From: a virus
Virus record (IMG/VR): IMGVR_UViG_3300001683_000067
Span: 1-21,509 of that record
Reading direction: 5' to 3' (one strand)
Length of the DNA: 21,509 nucleotides
Shown: piece by piece, positions 3,774-21,509 of the stretch
Layout: every line of letters starts with the position of its first letter
Numbering within the stretch: the first letter of the stretch is position 1
Position numbers and translations under genes: made by a program
Notes under the pieces: generated by a model
The model's database searches: none
The model's input: the letters and a program-made list of their open reading frames with translations, nothing else
Told to the model about the DNA's origin: nothing

Positions 3774-3774
3774 C

Positions 3775-5639: not shown

Positions 5640-6147
5640 CCTTCATTCCTTTACCGTGCCATCTGGCATTGCGGCCGCGGACATCATAGTGGGTGAATGT
5701 CTTATACAGGCCCACGCCACCCTTCATCATCTTGCTGTCCTTGATCAGAGCCTCGATGGCCTCCTTGATCTCGCCCGAGGATAAGCCAGTGATCTTGATG
5801 TCTGCTGCCTTAGCCTGCATGTGCTGGCTCCGAGCCGCGCCGCCGATCTTACGATTGTACTTGGGAGTGCGATAGCCACTAATGACCCGGATGGGACGGC
5901 CCAGATGCTCCCGAAGAACCTGCAGGTTATCAGCCAATAGCTGCACATGCTCCATCAGTTCCTCGGGCACATCAGTGCCGTCCTTGCACTTAAACTCCGA
6001 CAGACTAAAATTCTCTGTCAACTTATCCGACACTACATCACCTTCAGGCTGTGAGGGCATCTCTGACGGGGGAGCCTCAGTCGGCTGTGTCCCAAACGAC
6101 AGAAACAACTTTCGAATTTCTTGCAGAAATAATGTGTACCAACGCAC
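5626..6147 (-). CDS. Peptidase M15 family, probable endolysin
   Basis: 173 residues with the peptidase M15 (D-Ala-D-Ala carboxypeptidase / L,D-endopeptidase) signature. Zinc ligands are His109 and Asp116 in SQHMQAKAAD and His153 in THYDV; the family arginine/tyrosine turn SGYRTPKYN lies at 90-98. The N-terminal FSLSEFKCKDG and the following helices are the usual lead-in for this family. The first 45 residues are hydrophobic then Pro/Glu-rich (MRWYTLFLQEIRKLFLSF), possibly a signal-arrest anchor. The start is GTG 6147; the ribosome site is weak, and the gene begins 9 bases after the upstream stop. Role: cleavage of peptidoglycan cross-links at lysis or entry. It overlaps the exported hydrolase gene by 14 bases. 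Family call is strong. Confidence 0.88.
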   Translation of the reverse strand: MRWYTLFLQEIRKLFLSFGTQPTEAPPSEMPSQPEGDVVSDKLTENFSLSEFKCKDGTDVPEELMEHVQLLADNLQVLREHLGRPIRVISGYRTPKYNRKIGGAARSQHMQAKAADIKITGLSSGEIKEAIEALIKDSKMMKGGVGLYKTFTHYDVRGRNARWHGKGMKDDSN

Positions 6148-6156
6148 CAGGTATTA

Positions 6157-6342
6157 TTAACTCCGGATGGTCACGTATTCTTTAAGCACATCATCTAGGC
6201 TCTTAACTACAGAGGATAGTGTGTATCCCGCGTCCTGTGCTCTCATTTGAGCCATGGGGTTACCCTTACCTTCAATCTGGTCGTACGCTTGTCTCGCGAA
6301 CTCTCTTAATTGGATCAACATCTTCACTTCTTTATCAGTCAT
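6157..6342 (-). CDS. Small helical hypothetical protein
   Basis: 61 residues with a good ribosome site (AGGAG, 6 bases before ATG 6342). The sequence MTDKEVKMLIQLREFARQAY followed by DQIEGKG and VVKSLDDVLKEYVTIRS predicts two or three helices. There is no membrane segment, cysteine or known motif. It sits between the glyoxylate operon and the M15 peptidase gene. Function unknown. Confidence 0.6.
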   Translation of the reverse strand: MTDKEVKMLIQLREFARQAYDQIEGKGNPMAQMRAQDAGYTLSSVVKSLDDVLKEYVTIRS

Positions 6343-6395
6343 TTCTATCTCCTAGTCTTGGACGTCATCTCTGCGCCCATAAATATGTACCCTAT

Positions 6396-7658
6396 CTAAA
6401 ACTGTTCCGCCTCTGTGGAATCCTCCAACGCTAGCGTTGAGGAACCTCCAGACGATATAGTCTGTGCCACAAGATCAAAATATCCTGTGCCCACTTCTCG
6501 TTGATGCTTAGTTGCAGTATATCCATCAGCCTCTGATGCAAACTCAGCCTGTTGCAGTTCTGCATACGCCGTCATGTCGCGAGACTCATAATCCTGAGCT
6601 AGCTTAAACATGTGATAATTCAGGTTGTGAAAACCAGCCAAAGTGATGAACTGGAACTTGTAACCCATAGCACCGAGCTCTCTCTGGAACTTAGCTATTG
6701 TGGCATCGTCCAGTTTCTTCTTCCAATTAAAGCTGGGTGAACAGTTATACGCCAACAGCTTACCTGGAAACTTCTCATGAATTGCATCTGCGAATTTTTT
6801 TGCCTCATCCAGGTCTGGCTTACCCGTCTCACACCACAAGAGATCTGCATACGGTGCATAGCGTAGACCTCGACTAATTGCCATGTCCAGGCCACCGGTA
6901 ACCCTATGAAAACCCTCTGGTGTCCTCACGTCCTCACCCTCAGCACAGGTCAAGATGAACTGACGATCCTCCTCATCAATGTCAGATGTGAGAAGTCGAG
7001 CGCTGTTAGCATCAGTTCGAGCGATGAGTAATGTCTCCGTTCCCATCACGTCTGCTGCCAATCGCGCAGCAACCAGTTTTCGAATGAACTCGGATCCCGG
7101 CACCAGTACCTTACCACCAAGATGTCCACACTTCTTGGCTGAGCTCAGCTGGTCCTCGAAGTGCACCCCCGCGACCCCCGCTCTAATCATTGTCTTCATT
7201 AGCTCAAAAGCATTCAACGGACCACCGAAACCAGCTTCCGCGTCGGCAACAATGGGAGCGAACCAGTCCCTGATCTTCTGGCAATCGTTCTCTGACCATT
7301 CAACCTGATCTGCACGACGCAGCGCACTGTTGATCTTCTGTGCTAGCATGGGCACACTGTGTACAGCGTACAGACTCTGATCCGGATACATCTCGTGTGA
7401 ATCGTTGGCATCAGCTGCCACCTGCCAGCCCGAACAATAGATGGCCGGTACACCTGCCTTGACCATCTGCATAGCCTGATTGCCGGTCACAGCTCCCATG
7501 GCATGTGTGTAATCTCTCGTGGTCAAAAGGTGCCAGAGCCGCTTGGCAACGGCATCAGCAAAGGGCGCCTGTTCAGGTTGTGACCCTCTCAATTGAACAA
7601 CATCGTCGGGCCCATATGGGCGCTCGATGCCTGTCCATCTATCACTGTGATTAGCCAT
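6396..7658 (-). CDS. aceA: Isocitrate lyase
   Basis: A complete isocitrate lyase of 420 residues (E. coli AceA 434). It splits isocitrate to glyoxylate and succinate, the first step of the glyoxylate shunt. The signature KKCGHLGGK is at 175-183, with catalytic Cys177 and His179. Other family blocks are intact: [11 protein letters not shown] (59-69), [12 protein letters not shown] (74-85), YPDQSLY, the metal/substrate region [26 protein letters not shown] (212-217), WCETGKPD (275-282), [11 protein letters not shown] (304-314) and the closing TEAEQF. The start is ATG 7658: AGAGGA lies 6 bases upstream and it overlaps the malate synthase stop by 8 bases; an ATG five codons upstream is less likely. 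No frameshift or missing key residue is seen, so it is expected to be active. It is the last gene of the operon pmm-like, aceB, aceA. Confidence 0.96.
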
Positions 7659-9204
7659 GTTTGATCCTCTCATAGGCAGGTAGGGTTAAGAAATTCGTCA
7701 ACTCAGGACTTCGACAAAGTTCATCAAAGAGTGGGGCAGCAGAAATCAATTCTGGATTCTGCTCAACAATTTCCGATGAAATTTTATTTAGAAGATCAAC
7801 TGTGACAGGTGCGCCATCAGAGAGGCTCGCTCCATGTGTCAGCCACTGCCAAATTTGAGTTCGGGAGATCTCAGCAGTCGCAGTATCCTCCATCAAATTA
7901 TAGAGTGGCACACATCCCTGTCCTCTCAGCCACGCAGAAAGATATCTAAGGCCCACATCCACATTTTGACGTAGACCGGTGTGGGTAATCTCTCCAACAG
8001 GATGCTCAAGCAGACACGCTTGATCATCAGACACGTAGTCATCGTGTTCGTGGTCAATCTGATTTTCTGTTGGCATGTGTTGATCAAAGATATCCCGAGC
8101 CAGATTCACCAGTCCGGGATGGGCCACCCAAGTACCATCATGTCCTGCCAGTACTTCCCGTTTCTTATCCGCCCTGACCCTGCTTAGGGCAGTGGTATTC
8201 GCCTGTTCATCTCCCCGAATGGGAATCTGAGCGGCCATGCCGCCCATCGCGTGGGCCCCACGTCGGTGACAGACCTGAATTACTGCCTTAGAGTAAGCGT
8301 TCATGAAGGGGGTAGACATTCCAATCTGTGCTCTATCAGGAGTTACTCGATCGGAGTGATTTCGGAAGGTCTTGATGTAGCTGAAGATATAGTCCCACCG
8401 TCCACAGTTCAGACCAGCGGAGTGATCCCGGAGCTCCCATAAGATCTCATTCAACTGAAAAGCGGCAGGCAGTGTCTCTATGAGCACAGTTGCTCGAATA
8501 GTTCCATACGGAATATTCAGTTGCTCTTGAGTCCACCGAAACACATCATTCCACCATCGAGCCTCCAGATAGTGTTCAATCTTCGGAAGATAGAAATAGG
8601 GTGCCTTTCCATTATTGACCATGTAACGGGCGTTGTGCCACATGAACAGACCAAAATCAAAAAGTGACGCGGAACATCGCTGTCCATCAAACAGAAAGTG
8701 TGCCTCTGACAGGTGCAAACCGCGAGGTCGCACAAATAGTACTGCCGGATCCTCCCCCACTTCATAGAGGCCCTTGGTCTTATGATGATATGTAATATCA
8801 TCCCGCACTGCATCCTTCAGATTCTGCTGTCCCTCTAGGACATTCGACCAAGTTGGCGCTAGGCTGTCTTCAAAATCAGCCATGAACACATTAGCACCCG
8901 AATTAAGGGCATTGATAATCATCTTGCGATCAGGAGGACCCGTAATCTCCACACGCCTATCACGAATATCATCAGGAATGGGTGCAACACACCACTCGCT
9001 GTTCCTGATATCAGCTGTCTCTTTAGGAAAATCAGGTAAGATCCCAGCATCATACTGTTTCTGATATTGTTTCCGATTCAGAAGTAGCGTTTCTAAAGAT
9101 GGCGTGAACTCTCTAACAAGCATCCCCAGAAAAGCAGACGATGATACTGTTAAAATTTCCTTTTCTGCACTCACTGTTGAATACTCCTCAATCATGTGCG
9201 TCAT
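7651..9204 (-). CDS. aceB: Malate synthase (A type)
   Basis: A complete malate synthase A of 517 residues (E. coli AceB 533). It condenses glyoxylate with acetyl-CoA to malate, the second step of the glyoxylate shunt. Family blocks include [19 protein letters not shown] (101-119), [11 protein letters not shown] (157-167; the Arg that contacts glyoxylate), [17 protein letters not shown] (206-222), LIETLPAAF (241-249; Glu243 as Mg ligand), CGRWDYIFS (267-275; Asp271 as Mg ligand), [17 protein letters not shown] (331-347), [12 protein letters not shown] (354-365) and [12 protein letters not shown] (437-448; Asp440 as catalytic base). No key residue is missing. The start ATG 9204 follows the stop of the phosphomannomutase-like gene by 9 bases; the ribosome site is weak, and a second ATG at 9195 is possible. 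It overlaps aceA by 8 bases. Confidence 0.96.
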
Positions 9205-9213
9205 GAAAATATT

Positions 9214-10032
9214 TCAGTTTTGTGTCCCGTGTATACTGGGAAGTATCACATTTCTGATTATTTGTTTCGGCTGTGCCGGGCCTGTAGTCATAAGGCCCCT
9301 TCCCTTGGGCTCCAATTTTTGCCATAGGCTACGATCATTTCCGCCGGGGCAACACTTATCGCCCACAAACCAAACACGATGATCACCACAGTGTGTGAGA
9401 GCATGCGTCTTATCCCAACCGTTAGGGTAAATGTCAATTGATGTAGTCCCGCCGAGAGTTAGCTCGATATCAGAAAGGTCGCTAGCGACCAGTCTCACCT
9501 GTAGCGCACTACGAAGCCTCTGTCGCACAGCGTGCTTTTTGTCAAGTTCTTCAAATTTAGTTCGTTCAAAAGGTCCAGCATCTCGACCTGGAAGGGACCA
9601 ATTGACCATTGAGCTCCTGAACGACAAAAAGTTTCCAGTCAAATTATTGAACTTATATGACTTCATAAAGTGCAGCTGTGACACTAAAATCTGCTTTACA
9701 AGTTTACTGTACGCGGCACTTCCATGCTTTTCTATTAAATGGGTTCTAAAATCTAACTTGTACTCACACACAAATTCTTTTTTCTCCTTGTCCCACTTAA
9801 ATAATTGAGTGCCGTTACATGGCATAATGAGTAGATCCTCTGGAAATAGAGCACCAATAGACGTCCACGCGATAGAGGCCTGCTGTTCAATATAGTCAAG
9901 AGGACTGCCGCTCACAATGCCTATCGAGGCATATCGAGATAGCTCCCGTAAAATAGGCACCATTGCCCACTCCATAGATCTCCTCGGCGGAGTTAAGGTA
10001 CCATCTAAGTCAAATAGAACAAGATCACTCAT
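9214..10032 (-). CDS. HAD-family phosphomannomutase-like protein (eukaryotic PMM type)
   Basis: 272 residues from ATG 10032, which places the catalytic FDLDGTLTPPR at the N terminus (nucleophile Asp8 and Asp10); a start at 10104 would overlap the HNH gene and add unconserved residues. Motifs match the cap-bearing phosphomannomutase HAD family: VSGSPLDYIEQQ (40-51), CNGTQLF (72-78), the substrate-binding FRSSMVNWSLPGRDA (138-152, with Arg139 and Arg150), GGTTSIDIYPNGWDKTHAL (194-212) and FVGDKCCPGGND (222-233). The eukaryotic-type enzymes interconvert mannose-6-phosphate and mannose-1-phosphate toward GDP-mannose. Phosphatase activity alone is also possible. The gene stands first in an apparent operon with aceB and aceA. 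A sigma70-like box pair lies just upstream. Confidence 0.85.
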   Translation of the reverse strand: MSDLVLFDLDGTLTPPRRSMEWAMVPILRELSRYASIGIVSGSPLDYIEQQASIAWTSIGALFPEDLLIMPCNGTQLFKWDKEKKEFVCEYKLDFRTHLIEKHGSAAYSKLVKQILVSQLHFMKSYKFNNLTGNFLSFRSSMVNWSLPGRDAGPFERTKFEELDKKHAVRQRLRSALQVRLVASDLSDIELTLGGTTSIDIYPNGWDKTHALTHCGDHRVWFVGDKCCPGGNDRSLWQKLEPKGRGLMTTGPAQPKQIIRNVILPSIHGTQN

Positions 10033-10046
10033 ATCATGTGAGTGAC

Positions 10047-10074
10047 ATTGTAACAATAATTTTAACGGGGTTAA
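10047..10074 (-). promoter_or_regulatory. Possible sigma70-like promoter for the pmm-like/aceB/aceA operon
   Basis: On the minus strand, TTAACC (10074-10069; 4 of 6 to TTGACA) and TACAAT (10052-10047; 5 of 6 to TATAAT) are separated by 16 bases, in the AT-rich gap between the HNH gene and the pmm-like gene. Transcription would begin around 10040, only a few bases before ATG 10032, giving a very short leader. No clear ribosome site precedes that ATG, which fits a near-leaderless message, but the box match alone is weak evidence. Confidence 0.3.
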
Positions 10075-10087
10075 TGCTCTTTTGTTA

Positions 10088-10594
10088 CTAGTCGATCTGT
10101 GCACTCAAAATTTTATTTATCGTGGGAGGCATTGGTGTCTGCTTGAGACTCATACCTGCTTCCCTGGGTAGGTCGGACCCCTTAACTTGATTACATCGAA
10201 CACAGGCTAAAACTACATTCTCCCAAACGTGACCGCCTCCCCTAGACCGGGGGCGTACGTGATCAATTGTGCCTGCGTCAAAGGCAACACGAGTATGACA
10301 GTACTGACACTCACCCCCGTCCCGCAGGTATAGACTTCTTCTCGTCAGTCGTGCGTGTCTATTGATGTTCCTGATTCTCGACACGATCACACCCGTAGTG
10401 AACCTCACAATAGACGGGCATGGATAGCGACCCGAAACTGTCTCTATCGTCAGCCTTTCGTGTATCTCAATAATTTCTGCACGACCACCAATAACGGCAG
10501 AGATCGCCCTCTTCCACGTCGTCTGAAATAACGGCTCATATCCTGAACTCAACATCAACACTGGTACTGTCAGTAAGTGTGTTAGATCAGACAC
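10088..10594 (-). CDS. HNH endonuclease
   Basis: 168 residues. The C-terminal half is an HNH nuclease of the McrA-like, zinc-stabilised type: CQYC (96-99), DHVRPRSRGG (111-120; His112 general base), WENVVLAC (124-131; Asn126) and CVRCN (131-135), so four cysteines bind zinc. The N-terminal half (LMLSSGYEPLFQTTWKRAIS and GGRAEIIE) matches the usual lead-in of this widespread family, often annotated simply as HNH endonuclease in bacteria and phages. The first residues are uncertain: GTG 10594 has no clear ribosome site, and family members usually begin near the PVLMLSSGYEPL segment. Free-standing homing or host-DNA nicking are possible roles. It lies just upstream of the metabolic operon. Confidence 0.85.
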   Translation of the reverse strand: MSDLTHLLTVPVLMLSSGYEPLFQTTWKRAISAVIGGRAEIIEIHERLTIETVSGRYPCPSIVRFTTGVIVSRIRNINRHARLTRRSLYLRDGGECQYCHTRVAFDAGTIDHVRPRSRGGGHVWENVVLACVRCNQVKGSDLPREAGMSLKQTPMPPTINKILSAQID

Positions 10595-11302: not shown

Positions 11303-11533
11303 ATGAAATTAACAGAATCTCAGTTGAGAAGGGTCATTCGCCGTGCAGTGACAGAGTTGTTTGTTCGTCCCAAGCATCGAAAATCACTTTCCAAAAAGGC
11401 CCTGAGTGTAACGTATACAGGCGGCTATGGTGGGGAAGGAATGGATCTGGGGTTTGGAGAGTTTGATGAGGCTGACCTTGACGAGGAAACCGAGCTAGAT
11501 GAACAGGACGAAAGGGCTTCAAGACGAACTTAA
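11303..11533 (+). CDS. Small tagged protein (MKLTESQLRR-type) on the plus strand
   Basis: 76 residues with a very good ribosome site (GAGGAGG, 5 bases before ATG). The N terminus MKLTESQLRRVIRRAVTELF is the class A tag, although the usual Glu after I-x is Arg here. A basic stretch (RPKHRKSLSKKA) is followed by a Gly-rich segment (TGGYGGEGMDLGFGEF) and a strongly acidic tail (about residues 52-72). The length and layout suit a small packaged or scaffold-like protein. It is the only tagged gene on the plus strand and overlaps the following membrane-protein gene by 35 bases. Confidence 0.7.
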   Translation: MKLTESQLRRVIRRAVTELFVRPKHRKSLSKKALSVTYTGGYGGEGMDLGFGEFDEADLDEETELDEQDERASRRT

Positions 11534-11972
11534 TCGTCTTAAGCAAAAATTGTACCTCAGGCTTGTTGCCTGCTTAACAGTACTTAAAACCGGCGCGCTC
11601 CTACGTTTCATATTCATGGCCAACATCTTAGATGGGCTACTCACCTTACACTGGATGAACATGAAGGTTGCTGATGAAGCTAATCCTCTCATGGCCCACT
11701 TAATTGAAATCGATCCCAATCTTTTTCTTGGGGTAAAATTTGCTGCAGTCACAATATCCTGCCTGATCTTTTGGAGATATCATCGATTAATCTCTGCCAA
11801 GATCGTCATTATTCTCTCTGCACTGCTATATGCAAGTGTCCTAGGACTTCACGTCGGCGGTGCAATTCATGCTGACGTGCTCGTAATGCCCACAATGATA
11901 GAACTTAGAAATGCTGCATTTGAGTTATGGCATCGATGTGTGTCCTGGATCTCGACCCAGATACCTCAATAA
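11499..11972 (+). CDS. Membrane protein, DUF5658-like
   Basis: 157 residues with about four hydrophobic segments: roughly 34-53, 72-93, 98-122 and a weaker one after it. The segment MANILDGLLTLHWMN, followed by VADEANPLMAHLI and LFLGVKFAAVTIS, matches the DUF5658 pattern (N-x-x-D-x-x-x-T near helix 1, then [AE]-x-NP-[LM] and a later lysine in a helix). The family is uncharacterised. The start ATG 11499 lies inside the preceding gene in another frame; a later start at the MANILDG methionine (11616) cannot be excluded. The 3' end overlaps the convergent GIY-YIG gene by 48 bases. Confidence 0.65.
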   Translation: MNRTKGLQDELNRLKQKLYLRLVACLTVLKTGALLRFIFMANILDGLLTLHWMNMKVADEANPLMAHLIEIDPNLFLGVKFAAVTISCLIFWRYHRLISAKIVIILSALLYASVLGLHVGGAIHADVLVMPTMIELRNAAFELWHRCVSWISTQIPQ

Positions 11973-12221
11973 ATCGTTCTTTGACTGCAGTAATTCTCTC
12001 TTTTTACTTGGAGTAAGTCTCTTAAACCTAGCCTCTAATGTGGCCGACTCAGATCTATCCTTGCAGCGCAACGAAAAAAGCAGGTCCACGGGCCGGCGAG
12101 ATCTGGTGTACTTGGCACCTCGTTTGGTGCTATTGTGCTCATAGAGACGACGTCCTAGGTCCTTAGTGATGCCACAATACAGACTCTTATCGGCACACTT
12201 CACTACGTAGAGATACCACAT
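11925..12221 (-). CDS. GIY-YIG nuclease domain protein (UPF0213/YhbQ-like)
   Basis: 98 residues from ATG 12221, which overlaps the upstream stop as TGATG. GIY-YIG features: YLYVV in place of GIY (residues 3-7), LYCGIT in place of YIG (14-19), catalytic Arg near 24-25 (LGRRLYEH), His29, Tyr38 (RGAKYTR) and the metal-binding Glu63 in TLEARFKRLT. The compact length matches the stand-alone YhbQ/URI-like group, which acts as structure-specific or homing-like nuclease. The enzyme looks intact. In a phage it may be a free-standing homing nuclease or act in DNA processing. It is convergent with the plus-strand membrane protein gene and overlaps its end. Confidence 0.88.
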   Translation of the reverse strand: MWYLYVVKCADKSLYCGITKDLGRRLYEHNSTKRGAKYTRSRRPVDLLFSLRCKDRSESATLEARFKRLTPSKKRELLQSKNDLLRYLGRDPGHTSMP

Positions 12222-12421
12222 CAAACATCAGAATGATGCAATTCGCTCATTGGGTACTTAATTTGTTGACCACTGTTGAGCTTTAGAATACAGAACATCT
12301 CCTGCTGTGCAGTTCCCCCAACCATCCACGGTCCTGGTTTGCTTATTATCTCTACTACTATTCCCTTGATTCGAACATCAAGAAATGCCTGTACCTCATC
12401 ACCCACGCGTATCATTCTCAC
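12221..12421 (-). CDS. Small SH3-like hypothetical protein
   Basis: 66 residues from GTG 12421 (AAGGA 9 bases upstream); an ATG at 12415 is in frame but further from the ribosome site. The sequence MRMIRVGDEVQAFLDVRIKG followed by IVVEIISKPGPWMVGG and ILKLNSGQQIKYPMSELHH has the look of a small beta-barrel (SH3/KOW-like), a frequent type of short phage protein. It starts 31 bases after the tail sheath stop. A truncated relative of its first ten codons lies on the other side of the sheath gene (15625-15657). Confidence 0.6.
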   Translation of the reverse strand: MRMIRVGDEVQAFLDVRIKGIVVEIISKPGPWMVGGTAQQEMFCILKLNSGQQIKYPMSELHHSDV

Positions 12422-12451: not shown

Positions 12452-15400
12452 CTAAACATCACCAAACCCCGTTAAAAAATCAAGACTGACAAACTCTCCG
12501 GATCGAGCCGGCTGCAAGAGGATCTTTCCACGTATCGTGTAGTTTTCCACGTCAGCCTGTGTGGTTGTTGACGTATCAATCATGACCCTGAATCCCTGCA
12601 ATCCTCGGCGCTGCTGAATCTGAGAAAGCAATGGCGTCACTGCAGCAGAGAAATTCGCCAGAGTTTCGCTTAAACTGGTATCCGGAAATAGCGTATCTCG
12701 AGCGATAACACGGACCTGACGGCGGATATTAATCAACAAGCGCCGAACATTGATTCTATCAAGAGATCCCGCTGCAGCCTTCAACGTCTTCTGACCAAAG
12801 ATCACGACTCCGGGGCCGCCGTCGCGACTTATAAGCGAATTGATATCAGCGCTGTATAGATCATCCAGATTAGAATCTTTCAGTTTGACCTGGGTCTCCG
12901 TGACAGTTTCCAAATGCCCTCGAGAAAAACCGGCGGGAGCAAACCAGGGCGCGCCCAGAGCATCATTCAACGCGTAGGCACCGAGCACTGCCACTGAGGG
13001 TGGACATCGCACGTCAGTATTAGTCTCAAGATCCCTGATGAACACATCAGGAAAATAGGCTGCCGCAAATGAGGAATCAAGTGAACGGCCCTTGAATCGA
13101 CTGATCGTGTCCGAGAGGCCCACAATTTGTGCAGAGGACGTCACAAAGGTAGCAGTGTCATCTTTCTCCTCAATATCCATGATATATAGCGCGTCGAATC
13201 GCCGCTCAACTGCGTCGATCGCATAATCCGTAATGTTCTCGTGACGAAAACCAGGAGTGACGAGTAGTTGAATATCAACATCCGCTTTCTCTGCCATGAT
13301 ATCAATGGCCTTTCGAACAGATGCCACTGTCGCCGAATTAACACCAAACTCATTGGTGCGATCAGCCATCTCTCTACGTACGGCTGCATCAGTCATGTTA
13401 AATTTGTCCTCATCAAAAATATTGAGACCATCAAATCCGCCATAGACTGGGAACGTAAAATTAAGATGATCCTTATTGTTATCGTCCGCGAAATCCTTGT
13501 TAGGATCTAAAAATCTTATGCCCCAGCCCTTGGGGTCTGCGGCGTCGGATGCAGGGTCATCTAGATGACCCTCTGGACTTATGAACGAGGCGCTGGGGGC
13601 CAGCACTCCATTCCGACTATACTTCGCGGATGCCCATTTCGTCGAATCTACTACACCGTCAGTACCGGTTATGACTTGGACCCGTTCCAAGGTGAATAGA
13701 TTATTGTTGAACCTATCTGCATCCAGCACACTCCCAGCGATATCGAGGGTTCCTTCATTGGCATCAACAATCGGATTTTGGTTGGTAGTGTGAAAATTGG
13801 GAAAGTATTTCACAAAACTGGCAATCGACGCGTCTATTTTATGCTCACGATTAGGCTCTTCTAGCAATGTCTTCTGTTCAAACTGCACACCCCAGGTTAA
13901 GCCCTTCACTACCTCGTTCTCTTCGAATTGTTTACTTTTTTGATTAGCTATGTGTTCCCTGAAGGGTATCGGCAGCTGCACACAGCGTGATAGCTCATCA
14001 GTTGTAATACCGACAGTGCTAGCAATAGCAGAGGTGGGAAACGACCCTGTCAAAATACTGGCATGTGGTGTTGAAGTGCCTGACGTGACGAGGTGTGGCA
14101 TTCCCCTGAAGCCTACAGGAATAGTAGTAATATCTAAGCGACCTCGACGGAGATCGTCAGATTCTTCGATGCGGATGTACCGAGAGATATTAGCCTGGGT
14201 CCCTTCAACAACCACCTTCTGGGAGCCTGGTTTCTTATCAAAATCATAAAATATATTGGCGTCCCCGATCACCTTAGTGATGTATTTGTCTGATGAAGGA
14301 TTCAGATCAAGACCGGTGAACGTATCCAGGGGCGCCGCCGTTGTGCTTCGGTCTGCATCATTAAACTCGCGGACCACCAAGTCAAATGTTCCGAAGCGAG
14401 TAGTGGGAGTCTTCGCTCGAATGTTCTCAATAGTCACCTTGAATTCTGTGTTGCTCCCACTACCGGCGGAGATCGCGTGTACACGAAAGAGATTTTTATT
14501 CTGACCCCGGATCCGTTGTGATATCACAAAGGGGGATCTCGCAGTCGTGAATCTATCTGTGAATGACTCAAAATCAGACACACCGACATTAGAGGTGGTC
14601 GAAGCTGCAGAGGTTGCGCGCGGCATACTACCAGTGAGCAAAAAGCCCAGTGTGGATCTCTCATGTCCTTGACCTTCGTCGACGGCGTGGCCGGTCCGGA
14701 TGGGCATGCCATCAGTGTCGCCTATACCTGATCCCGTAATCACTGCATATGCCGGATGAATGTCATAATGAGTGTAAAGACAGTGCCCAGCAAGTTCAAT
14801 TGCGCGAGGGTCAGTATTGAATATACGGGCAAAATAGATATCACTCCAAGGGTCAAAAGAGCTGGTTATGACGTTGTCATAACCTGTGGTCTGTTTGTGC
14901 CCATTTAGAATCATCGTAAAAGAGTCGCTGCCTAAGGATCCAGTGATCACATCACCCAGATTGGCTCCACCCATATCACCGACACCAAACACTTTACCCG
15001 CAACAGTTGTCGACGGCAAGTTGTTGGGTACCAGTGAAGAGCTCAAGGAGGCCACGACTCCGGACGGAGTGAATAGGACCCCCCGAATAATTGGATGTGA
15101 TCCGGTAGTACCCAGCTCTGTAATGCCCGCGTCAGAGAAAATCGTCGATCCCGCTGACTGTGACATGAAGCACCCCAGGAAAAAAGTCCTTCCTAAAGTT
15201 CCGGCGCTAGGATCAGCAGTTGCTGCGTAAGCATTCGAACCGATAATGCCGTTCGCTTGCGGCAACTGTTGGCCGACAGTGAAGCCCGCGTTGGTCACTG
15301 CACCGTCAGTGGCACTTCTCTTTTTTCCGTCGCCGGCGCCCAAGATTCTAACATACACAACCGAGGCAGCATTCCTCATCCACTCATTAACAGCTATCGG

Positions 15401-15595
15401 GCCAAACTTCTTTCCGTCTGTGTTCCCAAAATTATCGATGAAGGTCTGGAAGCTTCCCAAGTCGAGGGGCACGAAGGCTGGGCCGCGAACAGCAGTGCCA
15501 ATGACACCGGCGGGGACTCCGCTAGGCGACGGAGCAACCGTCGATCTAGATAAATCAACTGTTCGTGTGGTTACCCCGGGTCTATTACCTGCCAT
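12452..15595 (-). CDS. Phage tail sheath protein (T4 gp18-like, enlarged)
   Basis: 1047 residues, start ATG 15595 with GGAG 8 bases upstream. This is the contractile outer tube of the tail. The N terminus (PGVTTRTVDLS, then GVPAGVIGTAVRGPAFVPLD and FQTFIDNFG) and the C terminus are typical: PSVAVLGAYALNDALG, WFAPAGFSRG, LYSADINSLISRDGGPGVVIFGQKT in pieces, DRINVRRLLINIRRQV, and a closing domain with FRVMIDTSTT and VENYTIRGKILLQP. T4 gp18 has 659 residues, so about 390 extra residues sit in the middle, probably as surface-exposed insertion domains. The assignment identifies the virus as a myovirus. The 66-aa gene and the GIY-YIG gene follow; the coiled-coil 111-aa gene precedes. Confidence 0.93.
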   Translation of the reverse strand: MAGNRPGVTTRTVDLSRSTVAPSPSGVPAGVIGTAVRGPAFVPLDLGSFQTFIDNFGNTDGKKFGPIAVNEWMRNAASVVYVRILGAGDGKKRSATDGAVTNAGFTVGQQLPQANGIIGSNAYAATADPSAGTLGRTFFLGCFMSQSAGSTIFSDAGITELGTTGSHPIIRGVLFTPSGVVASLSSSLVPNNLPSTTVAGKVFGVGDMGGANLGDVITGSLGSDSFTMILNGHKQTTGYDNVITSSFDPWSDIYFARIFNTDPRAIELAGHCLYTHYDIHPAYAVITGSGIGDTDGMPIRTGHAVDEGQGHERSTLGFLLTGSMPRATSAASTTSNVGVSDFESFTDRFTTARSPFVISQRIRGQNKNLFRVHAISAGSGSNTEFKVTIENIRAKTPTTRFGTFDLVVREFNDADRSTTAAPLDTFTGLDLNPSSDKYITKVIGDANIFYDFDKKPGSQKVVVEGTQANISRYIRIEESDDLRRGRLDITTIPVGFRGMPHLVTSGTSTPHASILTGSFPTSAIASTVGITTDELSRCVQLPIPFREHIANQKSKQFEENEVVKGLTWGVQFEQKTLLEEPNREHKIDASIASFVKYFPNFHTTNQNPIVDANEGTLDIAGSVLDADRFNNNLFTLERVQVITGTDGVVDSTKWASAKYSRNGVLAPSASFISPEGHLDDPASDAADPKGWGIRFLDPNKDFADDNNKDHLNFTFPVYGGFDGLNIFDEDKFNMTDAAVRREMADRTNEFGVNSATVASVRKAIDIMAEKADVDIQLLVTPGFRHENITDYAIDAVERRFDALYIMDIEEKDDTATFVTSSAQIVGLSDTISRFKGRSLDSSFAAAYFPDVFIRDLETNTDVRCPPSVAVLGAYALNDALGAPWFAPAGFSRGHLETVTETQVKLKDSNLDDLYSADINSLISRDGGPGVVIFGQKTLKAAAGSLDRINVRRLLINIRRQVRVIARDTLFPDTSLSETLANFSAAVTPLLSQIQQRRGLQGFRVMIDTSTTTQADVENYTIRGKILLQPARSGEFVSLDFLTGFGDV

Positions 15596-15624: not shown

Positions 15625-15657
15625 TTAATACTTATCACCCACACGCATGATTCTCAC
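15625..15657 (-). pseudogene. Ten-codon remnant resembling the start of the 66-aa SH3-like gene
   Basis: GTG 15657 shares its G with the upstream stop (TAGTG) and opens a ten-codon frame, MRIMRVGDKY, ended by TAA. It matches the opening of the 66-aa gene at 12421 (MRMIRVGDEV) in protein and DNA: about 22 of 27 bases agree (GTGAGAAT-C/G-ATxCGxGTGGGTGATxAG). The likeness suggests a duplicated gene that lost all but its start, or a conserved leader peptide, in the gap before the sheath gene. Confidence 0.35.
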
Positions 15658-15992
15658 TATGCGTCGCCCTTCATTTTATTGTGCCATTTGAGCTTTTTGA
15701 CATGATCCTCCAGATGCTCTTGCAGCATCCCCTCGTTATCTTTTGCCCAGGACTCCATTTCGCTCTCCTTCAGCTCATCAAGCATCCTCCACAAGGATTC
15801 ATTTTCGTCCTTGATCTCCTCAATTAGATCCAAACAGTAATTTAGTGAAGTGTCTATCCATTCAACGTGAGAGGCTGCGGGGGGACGGAGGCGTGTCCGT
15901 AACCAATCACGAATGTCTTCTAGTCGTTCATCATCGGACTTTTCTGGTGATTCTGTTTGCAGCAATTGTTTATCTCGTGCTTTAAGCGTCAT
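15657..15992 (-). CDS. Coiled-coil hypothetical protein upstream of the tail sheath
   Basis: 111 residues, charged and helical. An N-terminal Lys/Asp/Glu-rich part (LKARDKQLLQTESPEKSDDE) precedes DIRDWLRTRLRPPAASHVEW and long heptad-like helices (LDLIEEIKDENESLWRMLDE, then EMESWAKDNEGMLQEHLEDH). The ATG 15992 lies inside the end of the GAPDH-like gene (11-base overlap), so translation is probably coupled. The position just before the tail sheath may mean a structural or assembly role, but no family is recognised. Confidence 0.65.
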   Translation of the reverse strand: MTLKARDKQLLQTESPEKSDDERLEDIRDWLRTRLRPPAASHVEWIDTSLNYCLDLIEEIKDENESLWRMLDELKESEMESWAKDNEGMLQEHLEDHVKKLKWHNKMKGDA

Positions 15993-17055
15993 CTATAAGG
16001 TACCTCTCTACTGGCTCTAGTTTTGTCAAGTAATCATTGCCATATAATCCATACATTGCAGCAGATACACTCGAGAGCAAAGAGTTGCCATCTTGAGGTG
16101 TCATCGCAAATCCGACCACTTTAGTGACACCTGACGACTGAGTCACCGATAAGCTCGGCAGACATACCACTGCTTGATTGTATATTCGTCCATAGAAGCC
16201 GTGATCACGCCCAAAACTGAATACTTTGTTTGTTGTCTCATGCTGTGTCGTAGTCACAAACATGTCATTTCGAAATCTTTCGACGATATCCTCCTGCGTC
16301 AATTTTTCACTTAACAAAAGAGAAAATCTCACCATGTGCATATACTGTGAGTTGATTTTCATTGCGCTCGAGAATATAGGAAAACTCCCACCCGTCTTGG
16401 TGTGTAATAGATCGTTGACATCCCTTGCATGGTGTGTACCGAATCTCGTGTCCGAGTGTTTTTCGGCGGTGGGCGCCGGCACGAAACCCTCATTCTGGCT
16501 CGCATCATTCGCCCGCCTGATGCAGACAAAATCGCCGGCGACCAACTTAGTCAAATCACCCGACGTCAATGATAAAATGAGTCTACTGATAGCATGCGTA
16601 TTACAACTCACTACCTGCACAAATGACGGCGCTGCCTTGTTCATCTCGACATCATTGATGCCCCAGGCATAGGGAAAACCAAACCCTTTCTCGCTTCCTT
16701 GAGCGATGAATATCGTATTAGAATTGTCTGCATGCGCTTGATAAAACAAGACTTTATTGTTGTTTCCTGCGGGGGTACAGTCAATCACCACATCCGAAAT
16801 TTCCAAGGATTGCTCTAGAGTATGAGTTACCTCATGACCAAGATCTATGAAATTTTTCACCTGATCTTCGTTGACAACTAGACCCGCGCCTTGTCCAATG
16901 AGGCTATTGACTTTAGCAGTCTCATAGTCTAACGGTGTGCGCTTATGGAAGATGACTCGATCAATTCCGATCTCTCCCTTGAGACGAGCGAGGAGGCCGA
17001 TCAGTGGTTCTCCAATCGTTCCCGTCCCAATGACTAAGACAGTCTTTTGACCCAT
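15982..17055 (-). CDS. Type II (archaeal-type) glyceraldehyde-3-phosphate dehydrogenase homologue
   Basis: 357 residues, start ATG 17055 with GGGAG 6 bases upstream. The N terminus VLVIGTGTIGEPLIGLL is a Rossmann nucleotide-binding loop. Later blocks follow archaeal-type phosphorylating GAPDH: VVIDCTPAGNNNK (89-101), FIAQGSEK (116-123), VVSCNTHAISRL (148-159; catalytic Cys151), CIRRANDASQNEG (178-190), and SQYMHMVRFSLLL (236-248; His240 at the place of the general base in the family MH-V motif). Length is close to the usual 340. If active it would oxidise glyceraldehyde-3-phosphate or a related phosphorylated aldehyde with NAD(P). The family TTGLCR after the Cys is THAISR here, so substrate may differ. 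It overlaps the coiled-coil gene before the tail sheath. Confidence 0.7.
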   Translation of the reverse strand: MGQKTVLVIGTGTIGEPLIGLLARLKGEIGIDRVIFHKRTPLDYETAKVNSLIGQGAGLVVNEDQVKNFIDLGHEVTHTLEQSLEISDVVIDCTPAGNNNKVLFYQAHADNSNTIFIAQGSEKGFGFPYAWGINDVEMNKAAPSFVQVVSCNTHAISRLILSLTSGDLTKLVAGDFVCIRRANDASQNEGFVPAPTAEKHSDTRFGTHHARDVNDLLHTKTGGSFPIFSSAMKINSQYMHMVRFSLLLSEKLTQEDIVERFRNDMFVTTTQHETTNKVFSFGRDHGFYGRIYNQAVVCLPSLSVTQSSGVTKVVGFAMTPQDGNSLLSSVSAAMYGLYGNDYLTKLEPVERYLIDDA

Positions 17056-17123: not shown

Positions 17124-17591
17124 CTAGCCCTCTTGAAGCCACGCATCTCGATCTTGCATCTGGGCATAGAGGTCATCATCCCATGGACCCTCGCCACCCT
17201 TCATTGCACAATTGAGTATAGCCTCTTCGGCGGTGAACTCCTTGAAGACCTCGGGCTGGTACATGTCATAGTAGATCTCTTTATCGATTCCGTCCGGCCT
17301 GGTGGCGCTTGTCTGGGAGTCAAAGACCAGATCACCCATCTCAACCCAGCCGTGGACAATAGGCTTTGGTGGATTCTTCCACTTATCTGTCACAGTGCCA
17401 TGGACAACTTTGAACTTAGACTTATCATTTAGATCAGGATGTTTCTTTGCCGATCGGCCTGGTCTTCCCTTGGTGTAGTATTCCTCGAACCATTCCTCGG
17501 CTTTCTGATATGCGAAGGGAAAGCACATGCCCTGAGCAAGAACATTCTGCTCTACTAACAGTTCTCTTATGTACTCGCGGAGGAGACTCAT
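17124..17591 (-). CDS. Tagged papain-like Cys-His-Asp protein A
   Basis: 155 residues, start ATG 17591 (ATGA overlap with the upstream gene). The tag MSLLREYIRELLVEQ is class B, with I-R-E at residues 8-10 and L-V-E at 12-14. The cargo has a possible catalytic triad: Cys23 (AQGMCFPFAY), His80 (IVHGWVE) and Asp91 (LVFDSQT). The layout Cys on a helix, then strand VVHGTV, then H-[GA]-WV and a following VxD, matches its neighbour at 19727-20164, with identical His-Asp spacing. It resembles papain-like or transglutaminase-like folds of small phage proteins; substrate unknown. The end GGEGPWD also matches the neighbour (HWGPWD). It is the last gene of the right tag cluster. Confidence 0.75.
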   Translation of the reverse strand: MSLLREYIRELLVEQNVLAQGMCFPFAYQKAEEWFEEYYTKGRPGRSAKKHPDLNDKSKFKVVHGTVTDKWKNPPKPIVHGWVEMGDLVFDSQTSATRPDGIDKEIYYDMYQPEVFKEFTAEEAILNCAMKGGEGPWDDDLYAQMQDRDAWLQEG

Positions 17592-18055
17592 CTCACAGAG
17601 TCTCCAGGGTTGCCGGTCAAATTGGCAATGGAGACATGAAAGCGACGAGATGGTTCTGGATCTCCGGGAGAACCGCCCACTAGCTGGATCACATCCTGCA
17701 CATATGTCTTGAGCTCATCCTGGTTGCTTACCCACACCACCCACGACTTCCTATCCAGCGCTTCATCGGATCGCTCTTCCACAGTGCCTTCCAAAGTGAC
17801 CGCCGGCGGAGGGGGAAGCATTCCGTCTTTTGACAATTGCTTGAGCTGTTTTTTGTACGGTTTCAGGACACTCTGATGTGCCAATGTCACGTGAAACTTA
17901 TCTTCGGGTAGAGGAACGGCTTCCGGTGGTAGCTGTTGTAAAAGAGATGAGACACTGCTCACTATCGCCGGGGAGGGCATTAGCTTGAGAATTCCGGTGA
18001 ACTTTACTTCTTGTTCCGTTAATAATTCTCGTATATATTCGCGGAGGAGACTCAT
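17588..18055 (-). CDS. Tagged 2H phosphoesterase (LigT/Acb1-like fold)
   Basis: 155 residues, start ATG 18055 with GGAGG 5 bases upstream, ATGA overlaps on both sides. The class B tag MSLLREYIRELLTEQ is followed by a 2H phosphoesterase: first motif FHVTLAH (His55-x-Thr57) and second motif FHVSIAN (His140-x-Ser142), 85 residues apart, with strands before each. Enzymes of this superfamily cleave 2',3'-cyclic phosphates, 2'-5' linked oligonucleotides or, in phage Acb1 (T4 gp57B), cyclic oligonucleotide second messengers of CBASS immunity. The combination of a capsid-targeting-like tag with this fold suggests a protein delivered with the DNA. Which substrate it uses cannot be read from sequence; an RNA repair or tRNA-processing role is the main alternative. 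Fold call is fairly strong. Confidence 0.8.
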   Translation of the reverse strand: MSLLREYIRELLTEQEVKFTGILKLMPSPAIVSSVSSLLQQLPPEAVPLPEDKFHVTLAHQSVLKPYKKQLKQLSKDGMLPPPPAVTLEGTVEERSDEALDRKSWVVWVSNQDELKTYVQDVIQLVGGSPGDPEPSRRFHVSIANLTGNPGDSVR

Positions 18056-18261: not shown

Positions 18262-19730
18262 CGGTAGTTCACCGCCCCGATCACCGTGTTCTCCGGATAC
18301 TTCTCAGCCATCTTGTCTTTCAGGTGACCGATGCTAGGGTGCATCATCTTACCGAAGTGCACGTATGAGCCGGGCTCAGATGCATGCCTTCTAAAGAACT
18401 CATCCACCAATCGGCTGGCAACTTTCTGCCCACCAAACTCGTCTCGAGTCTTCATGTAATCGATGTACCACATGGGCGCGCCATCGTCGGCAGTGCCTTG
18501 CGAGTGATAGTCCAGAAATCCGATGACGCAGTCATCATCGACACCCGGAACGAGCTGGCCCTTCCTAGGTTTCTTTAGTGGTCGACCGGTCTTGCCGCGG
18601 CGTTCCCACTCCTGCACATCTGCGAAGTAGTAATCGCTTTCGTGGGGCGGATCGGTGACCGAAGTGTCGCAGAGAGCCAGGCGCTTGACATGGCCACCTC
18701 TGTTGTACGATAGAGGTGAATCGACCTCTCGGAACTCTACACTTTCGGTGAGGAGTCCCCTTATGTACTCACGAACCGCTGACTCATCCAATTCCTCTGC
18801 TGGATCGTATCCCGGGTATGCCTCCTTCGGTTTGCCCATCGCGCGGGTGATGTCCTCTATCCTCTGCTTCTCGTCCTCTTCGAGCTCCCTGATCGGATTG
18901 AGCACCATGCGAGGCACGATGTAATCTCTGTCCAATCGACCGGTCATCTCACCGTACCACCTGATGAAGTCCCACGACAGGCGGACTTGCATGCCCTTCT
19001 TCAGCTGACCGACGTACACCATCCAAAGCTCCGAGCGGTGCCACGCCTCTTGGGTTGTCTGCTGATCTGGTACACAACTTATTACGCCCTCTTCTCGATG
19101 AAGGTCGTCGTCTGGATCAACACCGGAATGTCGGGCATATTTCTCCCAATTAAAGTCCTTTCCGTACTCATTGTTGGGCGAGCTTGGACAATGAGAGCCG
19201 TACGGCACTCGAGTCTCTATCTCGTCACCGCTCTTATCCTTGATGTCGACTGCGTATATGTGTCCGGTAGCAGCGCTCCCTAAAGCCTCGAGAGCCTTGT
19301 CGATGGTGGGGGCCAGTGAGATTCGGGGATCGAACTCATCCTCAATTACCCGGCCATCTTCGTCCTCGTACGGATGCCTGGGAACTCGGGGCTCCATGAC
19401 CGTGCCCACGTCATCACCGATCCAGCTGCTCGAAATGTGGTACCACTCGAACAGTCGATCGAGATCTCGCGCGGATATGGTGTACGGTGAATCTCCGTAG
19501 AGGCTATCAACAACCCTCTCTAGTGGTTGCTCCCACCAGTGTGCATTAATGTACCACATCTTCCGGCCGTCGGGGGCATCGGGGCTGGAGTATTCACTCA
19601 GCATCCCTCTGACATACGTGCGCACCATGGACTCAGTCATCTCCTCCTGTTCCAGCACGTCGAGCACAGCATTGCTGACCGGCACGTCCTGCGCCTGGAG
19701 GGTGTTGAATATCTGGGGTTCTTTTTTCAC
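18258..19730 (-). CDS. Fusion protein: tag, ADP-ribosyltransferase-like (?) domain, tag, GNAT acetyltransferase domain
   Basis: 490 residues from GTG 19730, which overlaps the upstream stop as GTGA with GGAG 8 bases upstream. Two class B tags lie inside: residues 31-47 (MTESMVRTYVRGMLSEY) and 315-330 (ESAVREYIRGLLTES). Between them is a domain with KMWYINAHWWEQP, YHISSSWIG (about 97-105), MEPRVPRHPYEDEDG, RISLAPTIDKALEAL (136-150) and HIYAVDI. The order YHxS, then RISLAPT, then a YAVD strand recalls ADP-ribosyltransferase-like folds, but I am not sure. After the second tag comes a GNAT domain: VIGFLDYHSQG, MWYIDYMKTRDEFGGQKVAS (acetyl-CoA loop) and LVDEFFRRH. An ATG at 19640 directly after AGGAGGAG would make the first tag N-terminal and is a real alternative start. 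Confidence 0.75.
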   Translation of the reverse strand: MKKEPQIFNTLQAQDVPVSNAVLDVLEQEEMTESMVRTYVRGMLSEYSSPDAPDGRKMWYINAHWWEQPLERVVDSLYGDSPYTISARDLDRLFEWYHISSSWIGDDVGTVMEPRVPRHPYEDEDGRVIEDEFDPRISLAPTIDKALEALGSAATGHIYAVDIKDKSGDEIETRVPYGSHCPSSPNNEYGKDFNWEKYARHSGVDPDDDLHREEGVISCVPDQQTTQEAWHRSELWMVYVGQLKKGMQVRLSWDFIRWYGEMTGRLDRDYIVPRMVLNPIRELEEDEKQRIEDITRAMGKPKEAYPGYDPAEELDESAVREYIRGLLTESVEFREVDSPLSYNRGGHVKRLALCDTSVTDPPHESDYYFADVQEWERRGKTGRPLKKPRKGQLVPGVDDDCVIGFLDYHSQGTADDGAPMWYIDYMKTRDEFGGQKVASRLVDEFFRRHASEPGSYVHFGKMMHPSIGHLKDKMAEKYPENTVIGAVNYR

Positions 19731-20164
19731 AGTCCGCTCTCCGTCTCTAGATCCCACGGCCCCCAGTGCCCATACTCTAGGATCTTCTTGCGAGCTTCTT
19801 CCCACGTGTACTCGATGGTGTTGCCGATGTAGTTGATCTGGCCGATAGCATAATAGAGCGGTTGAGGTATCTCGAGGTCCCTGCCATTGGCCTTATCGAT
19901 CACCATGCCGTTGCCCAGCACCCAGGCGTGTCCGTACGTCATGCCTTCTAGTGCGCCTTGACCGGCAACCTCCCCGTGCACCAAGATCAGGTCGTCGCAG
20001 CGATCAGCAGCTAGACACTCGTCCATCATGTATCTGCCGGCAGCTTGGTAGCAGTCTCCGCCGGTATTTTGCTGCGAGACTCCGTGCTGTTCGGCCGCGG
20101 CATCCTGCGACGCCTGGAGCTCCTCGACAGAAATCTCGTTGATGTACTCGCGGAGGAGGCTCAT
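19727..20164 (-). CDS. Tagged papain-like Cys-His-Asp protein B
   Basis: 145 residues, start ATG 20164 with GGAGG-rich upstream sequence and ATGA overlap. The tag is MSLLREYINEISVEEL, with I-N-E at residues 8-10. After a short linker the domain runs GGDCYQAAGRYMMD (Cys38), LILVHGEVAGQG, YGHAWVLGNGMVIDKANGRD (His79, Asp90), PLYYAIGQI and a C-terminal TWEEARKKILEYGHWGPWDL. Cys-His-Asp order and spacing match protein A (17124-17591), so the two are paralogues. The layout suggests a papain-like hydrolase or transferase. I recall this domain as an uncharacterised but common phage protein. It shares the GTGA junction with the fusion protein. Confidence 0.78.
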   Translation of the reverse strand: MSLLREYINEISVEELQASQDAAAEQHGVSQQNTGGDCYQAAGRYMMDECLAADRCDDLILVHGEVAGQGALEGMTYGHAWVLGNGMVIDKANGRDLEIPQPLYYAIGQINYIGNTIEYTWEEARKKILEYGHWGPWDLETESGL

Positions 20165-20649
20165 TGCGGCTGCCTCACTAGAACCTCACCGTAGTCCGCA
20201 TCCGTCTGCTCGAAGCCGGCTCGCTTGTACCAGCTGATCAGATCCTCATCGGACACCGACTGCTGACCGAAGGGTGCAGCCAGCAGCCTGAGGCTCACAC
20301 CGTGTTTATCAGCCAGCCCGGTGACCTTGTTCATCACCTTGGAGGCAAAACCCTGCCGCTCACAGACGTCCGGCGGCACGGTCTGGATGCTGCTGAAGTA
20401 TATGCCACCGCGATGATTATCGATCCGGATGTTGGTTGTTACGATACAGTGCTTGCTGTCGATCTCCCCCATGTACCAGTAGCGATCACCGCGACTCCCC
20501 ATGGGGTTAACCTTGGAGAGAGACTCGTACTCCTTCATGAAAGCAAAATCCTCGGCCGTGGGCTCAGGCCGGCCGTACTTGTCCCAGGTGACCTCCAGAG
20601 CCTGAGTCTGCTCGATCAGGAGTCGGACGTATCGGCGGAGGATCTTCAT
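20161..20649 (-). CDS. Tagged GNAT acetyltransferase
   Basis: 162 residues, start ATG 20649 (ATGA overlap, GGAGGATC just upstream). The tag MKILRRYVRLLIEQ mixes features of both classes and holds L-I-E at residues 11-13. The GNAT fold is visible: GGIYFSSIQTVPPDVCERQG then FASKVMNKVTGLADKHG (acetyl-CoA pyrophosphate loop with R/Q-x-x-G-x-A), SLRLLAAPFG, and LISWYKRAGFEQ, the typical C-terminal strand-helix of N-acetyltransferases. The acceptor is unknown: proteins, aminoglycoside-like small molecules or toxins are all possible. It lies between two other tagged genes, and translation is coupled throughout. Confidence 0.82.
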   Translation of the reverse strand: MKILRRYVRLLIEQTQALEVTWDKYGRPEPTAEDFAFMKEYESLSKVNPMGSRGDRYWYMGEIDSKHCIVTTNIRIDNHRGGIYFSSIQTVPPDVCERQGFASKVMNKVTGLADKHGVSLRLLAAPFGQQSVSDEDLISWYKRAGFEQTDADYGEVLVRQPQ

Positions 20650-21227
20650 CGCGGTTCCTCAAATTCAATCTTGCCCAGAGCCTTCAGTCTATCAATTGTA
20701 GGCGTGCCATAGACACCGTACAGTTTGGACAGAGGAGACCGGGTGAATTCGTCGCCCGCTTCGTCATCATGACCGACGTCCCCCCATGCCACCTGCTGCA
20801 AGCAGTTATCGTACTCATCCGGTGTCAGGGTGTTGTATAGATCGTCCAGTTGTGCGACCTCGACGTCTGGTCTGTTATCCTGGTAGAACTGCCAGACCTT
20901 CTGGGCCTCGTCCGAAACATCGTTGCGATCTGCTATGAGACCGCTAGCGACCATCGAGGCGATCTCCATGGCGATGTCATAAAGCATCGGGCCCCACCCC
21001 TGTTCGGCTTGCGAGGTATGGACTTGGTACGACCCTAAGCAGGGATCGGTATCAGTACCGGCAGGGCCGATCGTTATCGATCCTACCGTCCGGTTATCGC
21101 CAGTAAGTTCGATGCGGTACTCGTCCCTCATGTTGTCAACGTATACCATCCAATCGGCAGGCAGGTCCTCGGGACGTTTGGCTGCCTCAGTGAGCAGACC
21201 CCTGACATACTCGCGTAACAGGTTCAT
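20646..21227 (-). CDS. Tagged GNAT-like protein of marine-phage type
   Basis: 193 residues from ATG 21227, which overlaps the upstream stop as ATGA; an upstream start at 21248 would add seven residues and hide the tag. The tag is MNLLREYVRGLLTEA, with L-T-E at residues 12-14. The domain includes WMVYVDNMRDEYRIELTG, SYQVHTSQAEQGWGPMLYD then IAMEIASM (acetyl-CoA loop equivalent, G-W-G-P), GLIADRNDVSDEAQKVWQFY, and a C-terminal part with TLTPDEYDNCLQQ, SPLSKLYG and GTPTIDRLKALGKIEF. I recall this domain as frequent in marine phage genomes and annotated as GNAT-like. The substrate is unknown. Confidence 0.78.
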   Translation of the reverse strand: MNLLREYVRGLLTEAAKRPEDLPADWMVYVDNMRDEYRIELTGDNRTVGSITIGPAGTDTDPCLGSYQVHTSQAEQGWGPMLYDIAMEIASMVASGLIADRNDVSDEAQKVWQFYQDNRPDVEVAQLDDLYNTLTPDEYDNCLQQVAWGDVGHDDEAGDEFTRSPLSKLYGVYGTPTIDRLKALGKIEFEEPR

Positions 21228-21509
21228 GGTGTGGACTCTCCGGTCCACTCTGCTATTGCGGCCTCGAGGGGTAACTTATTCTCTGGCGCATGCAGTCCCC
21301 ACTTAGCTATCTTTTCTGGAGAAAAGACGTGGTCTAGGGGGAATGCATTCCTCTGCCTAGGCCAACGTCCTGGGTGATCTTCCAGGTACTTCTTGATTTC
21401 TTCTGGCGTGTAGGGCAGCCCGAGGTCTCTTGATGTTATAGGAGATAAAAGAAACTCAGCTCTCAATCGATCTAAGATGGGCGTGCCGGTAGATCTTTTA
21501 TGATACGTC
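21224..21509 (-). CDS. Hypothetical protein, 5' end beyond the window
   Basis: The frame is open to the right edge, so the start is outside; a TTG at 21466 exists in frame but no ribosome site supports it. About 94 C-terminal residues are visible. The first visible part, KRSTGTPILDRLRAEF, resembles the end of the neighbouring GNAT-like protein (GVYGTPTIDRLKALGKIEF), which suggests that it may be another member of that family with an extra C-terminal part (LPYTPEEIKKYLEDHPGRWP, then HVFSPEKIAKWGLHAPENK). Its stop overlaps the next start as ATGA. Confidence 0.6.
   Translation of the reverse strand, partial: TYHKRSTGTPILDRLRAEFLLSPITSRDLGLPYTPEEIKKYLEDHPGRWPRQRNAFPLDHVFSPEKIAKWGLHAPENKLPLEAAIAEWTGESTP

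Follow-up and report, generated by a model that had tools for sequence, protein, structure and literature searches.

The window analysed here, the whole of a 21.5-kb IMG/VR virus record (21,509 nucleotides) from a phage known only from metagenomes, carries a GAPDH-like gene on its minus strand (15982..17055; 357 codons, ATG to TAA). The motifs that a first-pass annotation had read in this open reading frame, a Rossmann loop, an SCNT catalytic motif and an MH-V histidine, were all located: GTGTIG forms the NAD(P) loop (G10-G15), SCNT contains the catalytic Cys151 and MHMV contains His240, the second catalytic residue. The protein also has K38/R39, R180/R181 and H208/H209. The stop end of the gene shares 11 bp with the gene preceding the sheath, as had been noted; this neighbour (15657..15992, minus) encodes a 111-aa protein of unknown function, and the pairing of the two genes is kept only in the nearest relative, the phage contig G001 (70% identity). 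Further along the same strand lie genes for a 1047-aa tail sheath protein (12452..15595), a HAD-type eukaryotic-like phosphomannomutase homologue (9214..10104) and the two enzymes of the glyoxylate shunt, malate synthase (aceB, 7651..9204, about 6.8 kb downstream of the GAPDH-like gene) and isocitrate lyase (aceA, 6396..7673). The aceBA pair (58% for aceB and 82% for aceA) and the pmm-like gene are also kept in G001. A functional tie between the pmm-like gene and the GAPDH-like gene was looked for and not found.

Profile searches and the predicted fold agree on homology to type II GAPDH with a Cys151/His240 pair. The NCBIfam type II GAPDH model NF003251 matched residues 5-287 at E=3e-25, TIGR01546 matched at E=2e-19, and type II GAPDHs in the PDB matched at 2e-13 to 1.5e-10; type II GAPDH models were likewise matched by all 44 of 44 aligned viral members. 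Both curated cut-offs were missed (89 bits against 185 for NF003251, 69.8 against 232.9 for TIGR01546). A Pfam search of the protein returned no family at E 0.001 and a PHROG search none at E 1. A closer match to another Rossmann oxidoreductase family is absent, the best matches to non-GAPDH profiles being insignificant. In a HMMER alignment to the M. fervidus enzyme (1cf2), Cys151 falls on Cys140 and His240 on His219, as counted from the alignment. An AlphaFold model built from 44 sequences (pLDDT 91.9) has the type II GAPDH fold: the top six PDB matches found with Foldseek are all archaeal type II GAPDHs (TM 0.76-0.79 by query, 0.80-0.83 by target), and among the 50 structural matches listed nearly all are GAPDHs, archaeal type II foremost. 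Among the viral structures of BFVD, no protein convincingly sharing this fold was found. The open reading frame is confirmed by these sequence comparisons as genuine and more than a chance match, and its product is apparently a full-length, functional type II GAPDH homologue. The gene is also under purifying selection, with a dN/dS of about 0.12 against the nearest phage relative (a value from an experimental Biopython module, at nearly saturated dS).

An alignment-based scan for viral relatives yielded 55 viral contigs. With the window these comprise 46 distinct viral proteins, the others being 48-70% identical to the window protein. Neither a clear relative among the annotated records nor a cultured phage-host pair with this gene was found in the phage collection searched, and a literature search found no phage type II GAPDH. 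A record titled as a phage, MT839732.1 (L012, a 4-kb 'Bacteriophage sp.'), encodes a true type II enzyme and looks like a bacterial mobile element; it also carries a MerR-like regulator (by eye), and is probably such an element rather than a phage. The nearest cellular proteins are 44-50% identical over their full length and mostly bacterial, coming from Acidobacteriota (including cultured Geothrix), Eisenbacteria, Krumholzibacteria, Binatia, Neomarinimicrobiota, Bdellovibrionota, Planctomycetota and Acidimicrobiia, with a few from archaea. Identity to archaeal type II enzymes is 25-31%. In a tree, 33 viral rows form a single clade (SH-aLRT 100) nested among the cellular subfamily, and the true type II GAPDHs stand in a separate clade, with SH-aLRT 100 on the dividing branch (a quick method, and the branch between them is long). 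The viral clade (97) was retained when a second tree was built with additional Acidimicrobiia. Its sister group was Krumholzibacteria/Planctomycetota in one tree and AT-rich Acidimicrobiia in the other, possibly through long-branch attraction. The first-pass label 'archaeal-type' and the expected grouping with type II are therefore not upheld, given the scores below cut-off, the mostly bacterial relatives and a position outside the true type II clade. These comparisons place the protein in a sister subfamily of type II GAPDH that is mainly bacterial and has no name; a single capture of the subfamily gene by large phages is the best reading of the trees.

The active site is strictly conserved. 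Cys151, Asn152, His154, Arg180, Arg181, His208, His209, Asp212 and His240 are invariant in 46 of 46 viral proteins, and Cys151, Asn152, Arg180/181, His208, Asp212 and His240 are invariant across the 46 viral, 81 cellular-subfamily and 11 type II sequences; a loss of Cys151 in homologues, which would have spoken against the assignment, was thus not seen. Dozens of positions are conserved in the subfamily only, several of them at the active site. T11, E16, P17, S121, Q147, H154, G206, S230, Q237 and D322-G-N324 are invariant or nearly so in the viral and the 81 cellular members, and beside the active site the subfamily has S121 for Gly, H154 for Thr, Q237 for Thr/Ser and G206 for Pro of true type II enzymes. 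Since these residues are common to viral and bacterial members yet unlike those of true type II, the subfamily is distinct. Viral and cellular members probably have one function in common. K38, at the end of the second strand, is invariant in the subfamily and is K or D in type II (Asp in some); by the general rule for Rossmann enzymes, this suggests the use of NADP. Compared with archaeal type II GAPDH (NF003251, TIGR01546; PDB 2yyy, 1cf2, 1b7g, 2czc), the protein is alike in fold, length, NAD(P) loop, catalytic Cys and His, and the RR and His residues of the phosphate site; it differs in its low identity, the two missed cut-offs, the subfamily-only positions and its separate clade.

We examined whether the surroundings of the gene in the window recur in other phages. 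The sheath adjoins the gene in the window only: near the GAPDH-like gene of other loci the window sheath has no homologue, and in G001 the same small flanking genes are present without a sheath among them. The tail-sheath neighbour is incidental, and a meaning in the place among structural genes that had been remarked on is not supported. Its neighbours in other phages are PhoH-like, ClpP-like, peptide-deformylase-like or replication genes (names partly by eye); in three loci (L016, L019, L026) an 829-aa ribonucleotide-reductase-like ORF (by eye) stands shortly before it, with a ClpP-like gene between. Among 46 other virus records searched, many of them fragments, aceA accompanies the GAPDH-like gene only in G001 (G002 being the same phage). 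Conversely, no GAPDH-like gene turned up in a search of 25 other virus contigs with aceA, of which nine exceed 170 kb and many are fragments; the alignment used had no positive control in that run, and the same alignment found members in other searches. The GAPDH-like gene and aceA are unlinked among phages generally, and the phage module with aceA and aceB that had been envisaged is not a general one. At syntenic loci, found through a marker gene common in these phages, the gene is locally present in 7 of 50, and it is therefore accessory at that site; a core gene of the phage group is ruled out by the same count. It lies on phage contigs with sheath, PhoH-like, ClpP-like and further phage genes, nests in a cellular clade and has a dN/dS of about 0.1. 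These sequence features are best explained if a large, myovirus-like phage carries it as an auxiliary metabolic gene.

The cellular members offer a second view of the function. A subfamily member was found in 33 of 149 Acidobacteriota genomes (438-486 bits against the viral profile). Type I GAPDH is also present in 33 of these 33 (compared by hand), so that the subfamily protein is an additional enzyme there, and type I occurs in 18 of 24 mixed genomes with a subfamily member; a Hodarchaeota genome with a member also has a true type II GAPDH. By a hand count that ignores kinship, two or more type I GAPDH copies, some in tandem, occur in 26 of 33 Acidobacteriota genomes with a subfamily member versus 14 of 116 without. 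In one Acidimicrobiia MAG the genes follow one another on the same strand in the order aceB-aceA-glpX(FBPase)-GAPDH-like, separated by about 0, 64 and 9 bases; this order is found in the Acidimicrobiia loci L079 and L338. Across the class, 24 of 60 loci have aceA inside the flank that was fetched, versus 0.3 expected for one randomly placed aceA per genome. The 60 loci are mutually related; they form 13 clusters at 80% identity, of which 5 have the aceA link versus 0.06 expected. Of the 24 linked loci, 19 have aceB-aceA upstream (2 with glpX between) and 5 have aceA-aceB downstream. In small-genome Acidimicrobiia (L329, L351), PPDK is divergent from the GAPDH-like gene, followed by aceA-aceB. 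A PPDK-like gene is divergently upstream in 13 AT-rich small-genome loci of the class, its domains being confirmed by Pfam in the two checked. In the locus L109 an archaeal-type FBPase gene begins about 20 bases downstream of the GAPDH-like gene.

It is only in Acidimicrobiia that the gluconeogenic setting is strong; Neomarinimicrobiota and Acidobacteriota have other neighbours. Many Neomarinimicrobiota loci have a metallo-beta-lactamase-fold gene directly downstream. In a number of loci of this phylum (L118, L122, L137, L140, L148 and others) the GAPDH-like gene is overlapped or directly adjoined at its end by such a hydrolase gene, which suggests translational coupling. In Acidobacteriota, PTS-regulator genes are found nearby (by eye); a neighbour labelled 'ppsA' was considered as PEP synthase and rejected, as by eye it resembles PtsI instead. 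The PLP-synthase genes pdxS-pdxT (by eye) precede the GAPDH-like gene in two loci.

On balance, and with moderate confidence, we take the protein to be a gluconeogenic, probably NADPH-linked phosphorylating GAPDH of the bacterial sister subfamily, accessory in a large phage. The gluconeogenic role is proposed because of the bacterial gene neighbours and the precedent of Haloferax, which has both types of enzyme and uses GapII in gluconeogenesis and GapI in glycolysis (PMC10817205). Haloarchaeal GapII is alike in superfamily type, in coexistence with type I and in the role proposed here; unlike it, with its genetic evidence and true archaeal type II sequence, the present subfamily is mainly bacterial and known from sequence. 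The direction suggested in the first-pass annotation thus gained independent support from the bacterial clusters with aceBA, FBPase and PPDK; the direction itself, like the substrate, the cofactor and the benefit to the phage, is something we infer. Bacillus subtilis GapB, an NADP-linked gluconeogenic GAPDH, would be a parallel in its division of labour with a glycolytic GAPDH, and differs in belonging to the type I sequence family. In the proposed reaction, Cys151 would be acylated by 1,3-bisphosphoglycerate to give an enzyme-bound thioester, which NADPH would reduce to glyceraldehyde 3-phosphate; His240 would act as general acid/base, and the phosphates would be held by Arg180/181 and His208/209. 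During infection, the glyoxylate shunt, which this phage carries too, and PEP would be the way in for carbon from acetate, fatty acids or C3/C4 acids, and that carbon would pass upward into the triose and pentose phosphates from which nucleotides are made.

Several of the observations above can be read differently. The systematic subfamily-only residues beside the catalytic Cys and His suggest that the substrate may differ from glyceraldehyde 3-phosphate. The same thioester chemistry could then act on erythrose 4-phosphate, for example, or on another small phosphorylated aldehyde or acyl phosphate, and the coexisting type I GAPDH, the scores under the curated GAPDH cut-offs and the pdxS-pdxT genes (assigned by eye) before the gene in two loci are consistent with this. 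We regard such a substrate as unlikely, though deserving real weight: the aceBA, FBPase and PPDK neighbours in Acidimicrobiia suit GAPDH itself, and Arg180/181, His208 and Asp212 are kept. Those neighbours also argue against an enzyme working in the oxidative direction, glycolytic or NADPH-producing, that would provide ribonucleotide reductase with reductant in the infected cell, as does the gluconeogenic role that type II has in haloarchaea possessing both types. The invariant K38, with its suggestion of NADP, and the ribonucleotide-reductase-like ORF (by eye) shortly before the gene in three loci would fit that direction, which we nevertheless hold to be improbable.

Two further readings start from the window. 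One, which goes back to the first-pass annotation, is that the phage acquired an archaeal type II GAPDH and combines it in a phage-encoded module with aceA, aceB and the pmm-like gene. The resemblance to archaeal enzymes in profile and fold and the retention of aceBA and the pmm-like gene in G001 agree with this, but the tree, with true type II GAPDH in a clade of its own, contradicts the archaeal part. An archaeal origin is ruled out by that tree together with the mostly bacterial nearest relatives, and the gene and aceA are seldom together in phages; the reading as a whole is very unlikely. Equally little credence can be given to a non-catalytic or structural (moonlighting) virion protein, to which the position before the sheath might point: the catalytic residues are invariant in 46 viral sequences, and homologues of the window sheath are missing near the gene in other loci.

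If the protein is a gluconeogenic GAPDH of the bacterial sister subfamily, a gene with at least 46 distinct viral versions would gain a function that can be assayed directly. This would also mean that the textbook enzyme GAPDH has a distinct bacterial lineage, without a family name in the libraries searched, that adjoins glyoxylate-shunt genes in one bacterial class and could account for the way in which certain bacteria keep glycolysis and gluconeogenesis apart. Short of an even chance in our estimate, and put forward tentatively, is the broader proposal that this third, mainly bacterial GAPDH lineage was not recognised before and is the dedicated gluconeogenic partner of the glyoxylate shunt, captured once by large phages, where it would run the central carbon metabolism of infected cells backwards, together with aceBA in at least one lineage. 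Widely discussed phage carbon genes, talC, zwf and gnd among them, direct carbon into the pentose phosphate pathway to yield NADPH and ribose; unlike them, the GAPDH-like gene would push carbon upward from small acids. An aceBA operon in a large T4-like marine phage, TARA_ERS478052_N000008, is already known from a published passage (PMC5332604), and that phage resembles the present one as a large phage with glyoxylate-shunt genes. The passage itself does not mention GAPDH (PMC5332604), and the 25 other IMG/VR contigs with aceA are without the GAPDH-like gene.

Some minor features of these contigs were also recorded. The window sheath (12452-15595, minus) is unusually long at 1047 aa, strong matches to known sheaths lying in its C-terminal third, and the related contigs available gave no homologue of it. 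An HNH endonuclease gene (10088-10594, minus) and a GIY-YIG-like endonuclease ORF (by eye; 11925-12224, minus) are situated between this sheath gene and the aceBA genes, the GIY-YIG-like one being located elsewhere in G001. A tubulin/FtsZ-like protein (by eye, with a GGGGGTGSA loop) is encoded in L067 at 5396-6520, and 12 similar ORFs were seen; in several relatives this ORF usually precedes the GAPDH-like gene by two to four genes, and it could be a phage tubulin. Finally, many otherwise unrelated small ORFs, in G001 too, start with either of two similar leaders (MKITKRQLRRLIREE..., MSLLREYIRELLTEQ...). In the window these are at 2582-3133, 3411-3797, 3775-4647, 11303-11533 (plus strand), 17124-17591, 17588-18055, 19727-20164, 20161-20649 and 20646-21248, and the shared leaders are possibly a targeting or processing signal.
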